Shown piece by piece: positions 57,755-64,000 of a stretch of 64,000 nucleotides of DNA (the stretch's first letter is position 1; the number at the start of each line of letters is the position of its first letter). The stretch is from Nitrosopumilus sp. b3 (lineage in GTDB: Archaea; Thermoproteota; Nitrososphaeria; Nitrososphaerales; Nitrosopumilaceae): the NCBI RefSeq assembly GCF_014078525.1, contig NZ_MU078698.1:1-64000 (forward strand), given 5' to 3'. The notes under the pieces were generated by a model that was given only the letters and a program-made list of their open reading frames with translations, had not been told where the DNA came from and ran no database searches. The translations under genes and the position numbers were made by a program.

Positions 57755-57961
57755 ATGGGACAAAATAACTGCAAAAATAAATGCAACACACACGAATCTA
57801 TCTCAAAGCACAGAGCCTATGAAGAAGGCGGATGCTTTTGCAAAAACTGTGACTATTATTTCAGGGAAAAATTCCTGAGATGTCCATGTTGTAACACTCG
57901 AGTTAGGTATTCTACGCGCTCAAATAAGCGGAAATTGGAATCTGAAATAGTGAGAATATGA
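57755..57961 (+). CDS. small Cys-rich zinc-finger-like protein
   Basis: 68 aa. Cysteines: NNCKNKCNTH, then GGCFCKNCDYYF and LRCPCCNTRV. At least two zinc sites are possible. The C-terminus is Arg/Lys-rich (RYSTRSNKRKLE), suggesting nucleic acid contact. Family not recognised. Confidence 0.72.
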   Translation: MGQNNCKNKCNTHESISKHRAYEEGGCFCKNCDYYFREKFLRCPCCNTRVRYSTRSNKRKLESEIVRI

Positions 57962-60028: not shown

Positions 60029-60154
60029 TTAAGAATTAATTGTTTTCCAACAACAACATTCATCCCAAGTACAATTAGGACAATTTTTAGGAGATTTACT
60101 TGCTTTACATTCAGAAGGAAGACATCCACAATCAGCACATTTTACTTGAAACAT
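60029..60154 (-). CDS. 41-residue Cys-rich microprotein (last gene of three)
   Basis: ATG at 60152-60154 shares one base with the TGA of the membrane-protein gene (TGATG), so translation is coupled. TAA at 60029-60031. Nine cysteines in MFQVKCADCGCLPSEC, then NCPNCTWDECCCW; almost one residue in four is Cys. Comparable to metallothionein-like metal-binding peptides. No signal peptide. Family not recognised. Confidence 0.68.
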   Translation of the reverse strand: MFQVKCADCGCLPSECKASKSPKNCPNCTWDECCCWKTINS

Positions 60155-60669
60155 CAAGGATTTATCATACCGTCATTATTCAAATTTACTTTGCACCCTT
60201 TTGTTATTCCCTTAATCATGACAAAGTATGTGCCAGACAATATTGCTATGGCAAGTAATCTAATTGGAATCTCATATTCTGTTAGGAAGGATAGAGATGT
60301 AGCACCTGCAACTCCAAATGTGGAGATTATGGTAAATCCTATTTGTCCACAACTAGTACAGATTCCTGCCCCCACACCAATAACAGAACCAACTATTCCG
60401 GTCCCAGTTTTCTTAGAATTTGCTTTTATGGTTCTCATTTGAAAAACAGCTAAACTAGTTACTAATGCAACAAGTCCTGAAACTATTATGATTAAAACAA
60501 AACTTAGAATCCAATCTACTGGAAGCTGAAATGCAAAAAAGGGTTCAAAGAATAAAAAGTCTCTAGCAGATAACATGAATATGAAAAGAATTGAGAACAA
60601 AGAAGCAGAAATTATCCAAGAAGAAATATCTGAGTAAACTAGTTTGAGGGTTTGTTTATGCAAAATCAT
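60154..60669 (-). CDS. polytopic membrane protein with CTSCG motif
   Basis: About 171 aa with five to six spans (SWIISASLFSILFIFML, WILSFVLIIIVSGLVALV, GIVGSVIGVGAGICTSCG, FTIISTFGVAGATSLSFL, IRLLAIAILSGTYFVMI). The CTSCGQIG motif lies inside or next to a span, as in small membrane proteins thought to move metals or thiol compounds; this is inference. ATG 60669 is preferred; a GTG at 60672 is possible. It starts 6-8 bp after the upstream Cys-rich ORF and ends overlapping the downstream one. Confidence 0.8.
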   Translation of the reverse strand: MILHKQTLKLVYSDISSWIISASLFSILFIFMLSARDFLFFEPFFAFQLPVDWILSFVLIIIVSGLVALVTSLAVFQMRTIKANSKKTGTGIVGSVIGVGAGICTSCGQIGFTIISTFGVAGATSLSFLTEYEIPIRLLAIAILSGTYFVMIKGITKGCKVNLNNDGMINP

Positions 60670-60674
60670 CACAT

Positions 60675-60794
60675 CTAACAGCTACAGTTACTACTATTAC
60701 ACTTTTTAGGATTACAAATTTTACAATCTAAGAGACATTTGTATTCAGGACAACAATAGCAGAATTGCTTCTTTTTAGATATCAATATTTTCAA
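60675..60794 (-). CDS. 39-residue Cys-rich microprotein (first gene of three)
   Basis: TTG at 60792-60794 follows GGAGATG (ribosome-binding type sequence) by a few bases; TAG at 60675-60677. Cysteines: FCYCCPEYKCLLDCKIC, then KKCNSSNCSC: ten Cys in 39 residues and many Lys. The stop lies just before the start of the membrane-protein gene, so the three genes form one minus-strand transcript. No homologue known to me. Confidence 0.62.
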   Translation of the reverse strand: MKILISKKKQFCYCCPEYKCLLDCKICNPKKCNSSNCSC

Positions 60795-60838: not shown

Positions 60839-61336
60839 TTATTTTACTATGGTTACCGGAGCTTTTGCTGCATGTAAAACAAAATTTGATGTGCTTCCAA
60901 AAAACAATCCTTTAGGAAATCCCATTCCTCTAGCACCAATTACAATATGAACAATTTTGTTGGCATTGCTATTTGCAAATGTAACTAAATCATGACCAGC
61001 ATTATATCCTTTAAGCACAACCCCTTCAAAATCAATATCATTTTTTGTTACTAATTTTTTGGCATCTTTGATAATTTCTTTTGCATTTTTTGGCCATTTT
61101 TTTTCTGGAATTTTTGAAGGGTTTTCTTTAGCAAATGCTGTATATTTTGTTATGCTATGTATTCCAATAATACATGCATTCATTTTTGTTGCCATGGAAA
61201 TTGCTACTTTTAAGCCTTTGATGGAATTTTTTGAACCATCAAGACAAACCATGATTCTCTTACCCATACAAACTTGCATCCCATTTTTATCTTTTATAGG
61301 CATAAAACAATTCCTCTTTCTGAGAATCATGATCAT
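60839..61336 (-). CDS. universal stress protein (UspA family)
   Basis: About 154-165 aa Usp domain. RIMVCLDGSKNSIKGLKVAI starts the fold and HIVIGARGMGFPKGLFFGSTSNFVL gives the ATP-binding signature. The start is unclear: Met12 or Met23 of the open frame are both better placed than 61336. It precedes the three-gene Cys-rich cluster on the same strand by about 45 bp and may be co-transcribed with it. Confidence 0.92.
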   Translation of the reverse strand: MIMILRKRNCFMPIKDKNGMQVCMGKRIMVCLDGSKNSIKGLKVAISMATKMNACIIGIHSITKYTAFAKENPSKIPEKKWPKNAKEIIKDAKKLVTKNDIDFEGVVLKGYNAGHDLVTFANSNANKIVHIVIGARGMGFPKGLFFGSTSNFVLHAAKAPVTIVK

Positions 61337-61392
61337 TTTAATTCAAATTTGAGAAATTCTTTGTATGGCTTTTAAAAATATTCTAGTATCTT

Positions 61393-61482
61393 ATGATGCA
61401 ACAAATGCATGGTATAATGATGAATGATTCTCAACACATGAACCAAATGATGTATTCTATAGAGTTTTGTCATATTGGTTAA
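61393..61482 (+). CDS. 29-residue Met/His-rich micro-ORF
   Basis: ATG 61393, TAA 61480-61482. Contains eight Met and three His in clusters such as MMQQMHGIMMND and QHMNQMMY, a composition typical of copper-binding segments of copper-resistance proteins. It might be a small Cu chaperone-like peptide or the remnant of a larger protein. No clear ribosome-binding site; TTTAAAAATA lies about 15 bp upstream. Its 3' end overlaps one of the 16-bp inverted sequences. Confidence 0.4.
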   Translation: MMQQMHGIMMNDSQHMNQMMYSIEFCHIG

Positions 61483-61529: not shown

Positions 61530-62441
61530 TTAGGTACATAAAACTAACTCTAAATTCTTAAAATTTTCTTCAAATCTTTCCAAGTATGTTTTTTCTTTAT
61601 CTTGAATCTCTAATGGTGAAAGAATCAATACTTTACCATTAATTTCATCTGCAATTATTTGAGACATTTTTGGATTAACATATTCTTCTGTAAAAATTAT
61701 TTTAATATCTAGATTTTTGGCCAAATTAATAACTTCTTCAATATCTTGAATGGTAGGTTCCATTATTGGATCAGATGATTTGAGCACGGTATATTGATTT
61801 AATTCATAATCCTTTGCAAAATAAGTAAAAGCATCATGAAAAGCAATGAAATCTCGTTTTGTGCATTCTTCTAACCTATCTTTAATTTTTGTATCAATAA
61901 CGTTAATTTTTTGTAAATAAGATTCAGAATTTTTTTTATAAAATTGTAAATTTTGAGGATCTCTTTTTATCAATTCAGCAGTAATGTTTTGAACCTGTTT
62001 TTTCATAGAATTTGGATTTAACCAAATATGGGGATCATAGGATATAGTTTGGGATTTAGATTCTGTTTTAATTATGGGTTTTATCCCAACGCTTGAATCG
62101 ACTATGGACAAATTTTTAAAATTACTTAAATCCCTTACCCATTCCTCGAATCCCAATCCGTTGATTACAACAAAATCTACTTGATTCATTTTTTGAATGT
62201 CTTTAATGGTAGGCTCCCAATCATGAGGTTCTATTCCAGGTGGGACCAGAACTTCCACATCAACTTTGTCTCCTCCTATCATTTTTGTAAATTCATACAA
62301 TGGATAAAATGATGTCAAAACTTGTAATTTTGTTTTTTCTGTTGGTACTGTAAAGTTTTCTTCTGAATCATTCATTACATAAAAAGAGATGAGAGGGATT
62401 ACAATTATTATTAGTATGGTGGCAACCTTTGTTTGTTTCAT
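61530..62441 (-). CDS. ZnuA-like metal ABC transporter substrate-binding protein
   Basis: 303 aa exported protein of the cluster A-I metal-binding family (ZnuA/TroA/PsaA). N-terminal signal anchor (VATILIIIVIPLISFYV). Metal ligands seen: His73 in GIEPHDWEP, His138 in DPHIWLNP, His202 in FHDAFTYFA. The fourth acidic ligand normally in a DPL motif near residue 276 is SPLE here. A His-rich loop typical of zinc importers is missing, so Mn or another metal is possible. No permease or ATPase gene is in the window. Confidence 0.88.
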   Translation of the reverse strand: MKQTKVATILIIIVIPLISFYVMNDSEENFTVPTEKTKLQVLTSFYPLYEFTKMIGGDKVDVEVLVPPGIEPHDWEPTIKDIQKMNQVDFVVINGLGFEEWVRDLSNFKNLSIVDSSVGIKPIIKTESKSQTISYDPHIWLNPNSMKKQVQNITAELIKRDPQNLQFYKKNSESYLQKINVIDTKIKDRLEECTKRDFIAFHDAFTYFAKDYELNQYTVLKSSDPIMEPTIQDIEEVINLAKNLDIKIIFTEEYVNPKMSQIIADEINGKVLILSPLEIQDKEKTYLERFEENFKNLELVLCT

Positions 62442-62554: not shown

Positions 62555-63085
62555 ATGTCAAAAAATAGATGGGTAATTGTTATTGCAAGTATTGTTTTAG
62601 GTACTTTACAAATTGAAATTATGTATGATTGCTCATTACAAGAAAGAAATTTTAATATTTTGAGTTGTACTGAAATTGTTGACATTCCGTCATACATTCA
62701 AGATATTGCAACATTATCAATAGACTCTGATAGCACTACAATAGTAATTGATGTGGAAATTGCAGACGATCTTCAAGAACAAATCATAGGATTGATGTTT
62801 AGATCTAGTTTAGATTGGAATGATGGTATGTTATTCGTATATGAGAGTGAAAAAAAACGTTCATTTTGGATGAAAAATACACTAATCCCTTTAGATTTGT
62901 TGTTTGTTGATACAAACTTTAGAATAATCGACATAAAAGAAAATGTACAACCTTGTTTATCTGATCCTTGTCCAAATTATGTATCTAATATTGCTGCAAA
63001 ATATGTCTTGGAAGTTAATGCGGGATTTACCAATATGAATAATATCAAAGTTGGAGATTTAGTAATGTGGAATCCTAAAACATAA
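62555..63085 (+). CDS. DUF192 family exported protein
   Basis: 176 aa: an N-terminal signal anchor (WVIVIASIVLGTLQIEIM) and a DUF192 domain with QIIGLMFRSSLDWNDGMLFVYE, FWMKNTLIPLDLLFVD and KYVLEVNAGF. The domain is a small beta-barrel of unknown function common in exported proteins. Two Cys in PCLSDPCPNY are extra. Divergent from ZnuA, 113 bp apart, convergent with the rhodanese gene. Confidence 0.9.
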   Translation: MSKNRWVIVIASIVLGTLQIEIMYDCSLQERNFNILSCTEIVDIPSYIQDIATLSIDSDSTTIVIDVEIADDLQEQIIGLMFRSSLDWNDGMLFVYESEKKRSFWMKNTLIPLDLLFVDTNFRIIDIKENVQPCLSDPCPNYVSNIAAKYVLEVNAGFTNMNNIKVGDLVMWNPKT

Positions 63086-63098
63086 AAAAATTGTTAGT

Positions 63099-63947
63099 TT
63101 ATTTTTCCACAGGATTTCCTATCATGTTGCCCCATTCAGTCCAAGAACCATCATAGTTTCGAACCTGGGGATATCCAAGTAGGTATTTTAGAACAAACCA
63201 GCTATGAGAAGATCTTTCTCCAATTCTACAATAACAAATCACATCTTTATCAGGAGTAACACCTTTTGGCTCATAGTTTTGTCTTAGCTCTTCAACTGCT
63301 TTGAAGGTTCCATCAGCATCATTGACTACAGTTGCCCATGGAATATTATTTGCTCCAGGAATATGCCCACCTCTTTGTGCATGTTCCATCGGATATTCTG
63401 GCGGAGCTGTAATTTGACCAGTAAATTCTGCAGGAGATCTAACATCAACCATTACAGTATCTTCTTTATCTAATGCACGACTTACATCAAATAGATAAGC
63501 TCTTAGTCCTTCATCTGGAGGTTGTGCAACATAGTTTGTTGGAGATAATTGTGGTTCATCAGTAGTGTAATCTTTATTTTCTAATTCCCATTTCTTTCTT
63601 CCACCATTCATGATTTTGAGATTCTCATGGCCATAAATTTTGAAAACCCAAAAAACAAATGCTGCAAACCAGTTGTTAAAATCACCATATAGAATTACTT
63701 CAGTATCTGCAGTTATTCCGTTTTTAGCCATTAAAGCCTCAAATTGTTTTTTATTGATTATATCTCTTGTAACAGGATCATTAATGTCACGTTTCCACCA
63801 AATCAGAGTTGCATCTTTAATGTGACCCTTTTGATATCCATTAACGGGATCATAGTCAACTTCTACTAATTTTCTATTTTCATTTGGGGGGTTTTGTGAT
63901 ACCCATTCAGTATCAACTAAAACTTCAGGATGGGCGTAATTAACCAT
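63099..63947 (-). CDS. thiosulfate/3-mercaptopyruvate sulfurtransferase (two rhodanese domains)
   Basis: About 282 aa. N-terminal inactive rhodanese domain (HPEVLVDTEWVSQNP, DATLIWWKRDIND) and C-terminal active domain with the loop CYCRIGERSS, where Cys243 (in the numbering from the first Met) lies in the CRxGxR form of thiosulfate sulfurtransferases. Also VMVDVRSPAEFTG and HIPGANNIPW. Met4 of the open frame (ATG 63945-63947, MVNYAHPE) is preferred. Last gene before the window end. Confidence 0.94.
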   Translation of the reverse strand: MVNYAHPEVLVDTEWVSQNPPNENRKLVEVDYDPVNGYQKGHIKDATLIWWKRDINDPVTRDIINKKQFEALMAKNGITADTEVILYGDFNNWFAAFVFWVFKIYGHENLKIMNGGRKKWELENKDYTTDEPQLSPTNYVAQPPDEGLRAYLFDVSRALDKEDTVMVDVRSPAEFTGQITAPPEYPMEHAQRGGHIPGANNIPWATVVNDADGTFKAVEELRQNYEPKGVTPDKDVICYCRIGERSSHSWFVLKYLLGYPQVRNYDGSWTEWGNMIGNPVEK

Positions 63948-64000
63948 AAAGAACATCAGATTTTATGATATTTAGTTTTTACACTTTACAATTACAAAAA

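Follow-up and report, generated by a model that had tools for sequence, protein, structure and literature searches.

The described systems closest to the locus reported here are the DsbA-DsbB and DsbA-VKOR pairs and the CcdA/DsbD proteins on the membrane side, and the metallothioneins and C(P)XCG micro-proteins on the peptide side. Passages of the work on mammalian metallothionein give the metal cluster of its beta-domain as Zn3Cys9 (PMC10243857). Haloarchaea encode dozens of C(P)XCG micro-proteins, many of which bind zinc (PMC11241148). For the ammonia-oxidizing archaea, a repeated gain of Trx/Dsb families and a heavy reliance on copper are described in passages of a further paper (PMC7554672).

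The locus lies in a stretch of 64,000 nucleotides of Nitrosopumilus sp. b3 (contig NZ_MU078698.1), hereafter the window, and consists of three ORFs on the minus strand. P1 (60675..60794) has a TTG start and encodes a 39-aa cysteine-rich microprotein. M (60154..60669) has an ATG start and encodes a 171-aa membrane protein with the motif CTSCG at residues 104-108 (C104-T-S-C107-G) and a further cysteine, C159. P2 (60029..60154), also with an ATG start, encodes a 41-aa microprotein. A gap of five bases separates P1 from M, and M overlaps P2 by one base in the sequence TGATG. This layout is as given in the preliminary description of the locus, which had counted ten Cys in P1, where there are nine, and had correctly counted nine in P2. 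The universal stress protein (Usp) gene said to precede the unit (60839..61306, minus strand; PF00582, E 4.6e-18) ends 44 bp upstream of the P1 start and is possibly co-transcribed with P1. The metal-binding transporter protein reported about 0.7 kb away proved to be of the ZnuA type (61530..62441, minus strand; PF01297, E 1.9e-75). Beyond it lie genes for a DUF192 protein (62555..63085, plus strand) and a rhodanese-type sulfurtransferase (63099..63956, minus strand), both of which also flank a paralogous locus on another contig, C1. Between the ZnuA and Usp genes, positions 61372-61482 can be read on opposite strands as putative His-rich and Met-rich peptides (MMQQMHGIMMNDSQHMNQMM). At 57755-57961 (plus strand), a 68-aa ORF carries cysteine-rich ribbon-like motifs (CFCKNCDYYF...RCPCC) and is probably a small zinc ribbon.

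The window contains two ORFs of at most 60 aa with at least eight Cys, namely P1 and P2, and 40 first-order Markov resamplings of the window yielded zero such ORFs; hence, the two are not chance occurrences. In an alignment with the paralogue on contig C1, the TTG of the window P1 falls on an ATG, and many members of the family begin with TTG or GTG. The preliminary description had made its proposal depend on a protein-like pattern of codon substitution, and such a pattern was found, with pooled pN below pS for P1 (0.146 vs 0.503) and P2 (0.228 vs 0.442), the sequence pairs in each pool not being independent. All three ORFs are real genes under purifying selection at the protein level. None of them has a sequence match in Pfam, NCBIfam or solved structures, and both peptides are unannotated, which agrees with the earlier suggestion that they are undescribed; no paper on them was found in the open-access literature. 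A viral origin was rejected, as a search of IMG/VR revealed no relatives of M, P1 or P2.

The P1 family mostly has seven to eight Cys and a QFCGYCPEDKCLLDCKICNPK core, in which the spacing C-x2-C-x4-C-x3-C is near invariant in 19 sequences. Five copies are present in this genome and about two dozen sampled congeners carry the family. Among 200 genomes of the phylum, convincing P1 genes were found in 10, all of them Nitrosopumilaceae, so that its range in this sample is confined to that family; an eleventh match was weak and contained a stop codon. P2 follows the pattern C-x2-C-x-C-x4-C-x8-C-x2-C-x4-CCCW, and its nine Cys are invariant in 12 sequences. It is present as a single copy in this genome and is spread across several families of Nitrososphaeria. 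A pattern scan of 84,980 species, for which the CCCW end was required, gave matches in Nitrososphaeria or archaeal MAGs, some labelled Bathyarchaeota, and none in bacteria; diverged forms (e.g., CCCIQYA) would be missed by this pattern, and a neighbouring family has a looser CCC form. Profile comparison showed no relation between P1 and P2, and their treatment as one family was therefore rejected.

The M family is undescribed. It is nearly universal in the genus and extends beyond it through the Nitrosopumilaceae and a few other families, with C104, C107 and C159 invariant in 70 sequences. The paralogue on contig C1 (C1:130555-131061) is 92% identical to the window copy. In longer relatives of about 280 aa, a loop contains APCC and the position of CTSC is taken by CPTC (hhalign probability 88), the APCC loop being predicted to be outer and CPTC to be deeper; another branch has GCPACT (hhalign probability 98). 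No recognized transporter or other known family was matched above threshold. The best structural model, built with 70 sequences, was of medium confidence (pLDDT 72, pTM 0.65) and showed four long helices, the cysteine segment being its weakest part; the first model, with 24 sequences, was weak (pLDDT 66). Foldseek searches of the PDB with both models returned nothing with E below 2. The mean charges (+0.9 at the N-terminus, -1.6, +4.0, and -0.9 in the first, second, and third loops, and +1.8 at the C-terminus) are more consistent with four spans, the cysteines then being buried or on the cytoplasmic side, than with the alternative of five spans and cysteines outside. In either topology, the three cysteines would probably lie on one side.

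The genomic neighbourhood of M is dominated by DsbA. Of the 85 short members of the family, 64 are immediately preceded, on the same strand, by a DsbA-like gene, and 68 have such a gene within a distance of three genes; at most Nitrosopumilaceae loci, no base intervenes between the TAG or TAA of DsbA and the ATG of M. One DsbA-M pair of this genome is located at C2:490147. The neighbouring DsbA genes match PF13462/PF01323 and encode secreted DsbA-like proteins. VKOR was detected neither in this genome nor in 36 sampled congeners, and DsbB was found in none of 61 genomes, in which the controls were positive. Since both are undetected in the genus, M is a candidate membrane partner of the DsbA proteins. 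By operon arrangement, the M family can be placed in a class of DsbA-partner membrane proteins; the window copy has no adjacent DsbA gene, which counts against a DsbA-linked function at this locus, as does the presence of CcdA/DsbD proteins, which could serve the DsbA proteins instead. On contig C1, the paralogous M is followed after 268 bp by a DsbA gene, and the contig of the window has another at a distance of about 27 kb. The island around the paralogous M contains ZnuA and ABC genes, CopC/CopD, CcdA, several DsbA genes and a TRASH regulator.

Several features of these loci were observed in addition. In many species (e.g., at the junctions L007, L017, L018, L022 and L003), the DsbA stop codon abuts the M start in frame, and read-through would yield a DsbA-M fusion. 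An apparent DsbA-M gene fusion at locus L204 is very likely due to an N-masked stop codon and was excluded from the evidence. In Nitrosopumilaceae, a thaumarchaeosortase gene (TIGR04297, 614 bits) lies directly downstream of DsbA-M (L233:339-1256 and most M loci), making a surface-protein sorting gene and the DsbA-M pair neighbours. The thiol and metal island occurs twice in this genome in rearranged form, at G000:C1:116000-135000 and at 60-88 kb of the window contig (L217, L218), the duplicated contents being CcdA, DsbA genes, an HtrA-like protease, a TRASH regulator, ZnuA, DUF192, rhodanese, M and P1. In genome G013, a frameshift disrupts the usual M copy, the one linked to DsbA (L040:3124-3604), and other M-like genes remain.

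Relatives with conserved cysteines next to the membrane gene, the check put forward in the preliminary description, were found. In 5 of 37 cases, P1 and M are no more than 300 bp apart, where 0.055 such cases would be expected (about 90-fold fewer). Three of the five have the order P1-M (both copies in this genome and the one in G013), G003 has DsbA-P1-M, and G039 has DsbA-M-P1. In a second genus (L236, G136), P1 overlaps M, and the pair is followed by a membrane protein devoid of a Pfam or NCBIfam match. P2 comes directly after M in the window and at two loci of the Nitrosotalea type. At L039, about 1 kb separates P2 from the M that precedes it; in G013, the order is DsbA-M-DUF7482-P2. On the M tree, which has several long branches and hence unsure deep joins, P1-M recurs on three branches and requires at least three changes; M with a nearby P2 likewise recurs on three branches and requires three changes. 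The exact P1-M-P2 trio was found in this genome only, and the paralogous M locus on contig C1 lacks P2. The coupling of the peptides to the membrane gene as previously proposed is thus retained for P1 with M and, separately, for M with a nearby P2, and not for the trio as such.

P1 and P2 also occupy the same positions elsewhere. In several genomes, P1 follows the gene for a DUF6789-like membrane protein at a spacing of 0 to -4 bp, and P2 is fused to the C-terminus of a DUF6789-like protein at L105, L106 and L109 (the DUF6789 match falling just below the Pfam cut-off); the fused tail is lysine-rich and predicted to be cytosolic. A BNR propeller gene is abutted at 0 bp by P1 (L084) and by P2 (L223, L225), an HxlR regulator is followed by P1 or P2 (L155, L226), and both peptides are found in DsbA-M operons of the CASCS branch (L089, L039). 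As two unrelated cysteine-rich peptides fill the same slots, we infer that their chemistry is equivalent. Both are mobile add-ons that occur in other operons too. P2 is accompanied by arsenite methyltransferase (above the NCBIfam cut-off), arsenate reductase and aquaporin at two loci (L115, L117), by ArsR-arsC-aquaporin at L147, and by a Cu-translocating P-ATPase and a TRASH regulator at L118. Further small cysteine-rich proteins were seen in these surroundings. One family (GEC.CLCCC..SKIGCP.C) occurs at L094:1280-1435 and L039:76-198, and a small cysteine-rich protein (ECPFCHEGEMREDSCGCFTC) is encoded upstream of the P2-fused membrane gene (L105:3641-3811, L106:171-341) and near P2 (L107:597-812).

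The proposed explanation, to which we give about an even chance, is that M is a thiol-redox membrane subunit linked to DsbA and that P1 and P2 are cytosolic metallothionein-like accessories for soft metals or thiols. In ammonia-oxidizing archaea, M would form the membrane part of a thiol-disulfide system linked to DsbA. Electrons would pass between an extracytoplasmic DsbA-like protein and the three invariant cysteines of M, namely the CxSC in or near the third membrane segment and the cysteine at the end of the last helix. P1 and P2 would bind soft metals such as Cu(I), Zn and As(III) or offer thiols, as interchangeable accessories on redox and metal operons. Translational coupling to M on both sides would let the metal or thiol load and the membrane redox activity rise together. 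Metal binding by P1 and P2 is suggested by their cysteine content and gene context; we further infer a redox function of M, the direction of electron flow and physical contact. A more far-reaching version, with M as the missing membrane oxidoreductase for DsbA in ammonia-oxidizing archaea that have neither DsbB nor VKOR, and thus a new class of transmembrane thiol conduit, and with P1 and P2 as dedicated cytosolic thiol peptides carrying electrons or soft metals to and from M, appears improbable.

Earlier, the unit had been viewed as a membrane-linked metal or thiol handling device, for example for copper or zinc. The regular association of M with DsbA-like genes is a strong indication of thiol handling, and this linkage is well supported; a fixed three-gene copper or zinc device was not borne out. 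A role in soft-metal handling is plausible from gene context, which comprises arsenic operons, the Cu P-ATPase, TRASH regulators, Met-rich neighbours, ZnuA and CopC/CopD. The same metal genes would also suit an alternative regarded as unlikely, namely that M acts as a small permease or exporter of soft metals, comparable in principle to MerT/MerF, by means of a metal site of three Cys, P1 and P2 being cytosolic metallochaperones and the DsbA neighbour keeping the metal-site cysteines of exported proteins reduced or oxidized. The three invariant Cys near the membrane, the flanking cysteine-rich peptides and weak, sub-threshold single matches to MerTP and a Cu/Zn exporter family are in line with it; however, the consistent partner of the family is DsbA and not a metal gene, and no transporter family above threshold and no PDB fold was matched.

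Little credence is given to the reading of P1 and P2 as small structural zinc proteins, i.e., C(P)XCG-like regulators or interaction modules, whose position beside M would be regulatory and not metabolic. Their size and CxxC content recall the zinc-binding haloarchaeal micro-proteins (PMC11241148), and HxlR regulators adjoin P1 or P2 in some genomes; yet nine Cys in about 30 residues and the CCC triplet of P2 exceed a one-zinc finger, the window peptides are without two C(P)XCG motifs, and the arsenic and copper contexts are left unexplained. That the trio is an accidental neighbourhood, in which mobile small genes of unrelated function have come to lie beside M, would account for its occurrence in this genome only, for the many contexts of P1 and P2 and for the lack of P2 at the paralogous locus. 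It is considered very improbable, as it is opposed by the excess of P1-M adjacency over chance, by its recurrence on three M branches and in a second genus, by the three branches with a nearby P2, and by starts and stops that overlap or nearly do so. Counting against the DsbA-linked explanation are the many P1 and P2 genes that have no thiol or metal neighbour (e.g., P2 by PheT and CTP synthase). The membrane gene makes most sense in the light of DsbA, not of metals, and the peptides in that of soft metals or thiols; the P1-M-P2 unit joins these two sides and points to an undescribed module for thiol handling and, probably, metal handling.

Nitrosopumilaceae are abundant nitrifiers of ocean and soil and are copper-dependent. 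They have several DsbA-like proteins, and with DsbB and VKOR undetected in the tested congeners, M offers a concrete candidate for the partner. P1 and P2 add two cysteine-rich families for which Pfam and NCBIfam hold no model, and the slots that they share suggest a common way in which a binder of soft metals or thiols is coupled to redox and metal genes, among them those of arsenic operons.

Compared with known systems, DsbA and M resemble the DsbA-DsbB and DsbA-VKOR pairs in that a secreted DsbA-like protein of the thioredoxin fold is combined with a small membrane protein of several spans and conserved cysteines, but M has one CxC or CxxC pair and one Cys, and not two pairs. M was rejected as a DsbB, PF02600 being unmatched by M or 24 relatives, and as a VKOR, since PF07884 was unmatched, hhalign gave a probability of 0.2 to a VKOR and only three Cys are invariant. 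With CcdA/DsbD, M shares few cysteines in or near membrane helices and thioredoxin-fold partners alongside, and the APCC and CPTC of its longer relatives add to the likeness; it was rejected as a member because PF02683 was unmatched and true CcdA proteins are separate in the same genome. A MerT/MerF-type mercury transporter was likewise rejected, a single member reaching E 0.039, below threshold. The Trx/Dsb expansions of ammonia-oxidizing archaea are described in passages that make no mention of M, P1 or P2 (PMC7554672).

P1 and P2 resemble metallothioneins in their length of about 40 aa and in being short with many conserved Cys in CxC/CxxC, and the nine Cys of P2 equal the number in the mammalian beta-domain cluster. 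The metallothionein models of Pfam and NCBIfam were unmatched, no significant PDB sequence match was obtained, and the Cys spacing and the CCCW motif of P2 differ. Like the C(P)XCG micro-proteins of haloarchaea, P1 and P2 are archaeal, below 70 aa and have CxxC motifs (PMC11241148). They were rejected as two-C(P)XCG-motif proteins, as P2 has one CxxCG (CADCG) and CPNCT and the window P1 has none. In contrast to the haloarchaeal proteins, P1 and P2 have more Cys, are thaumarchaeal and are tied to redox and soft-metal operons.
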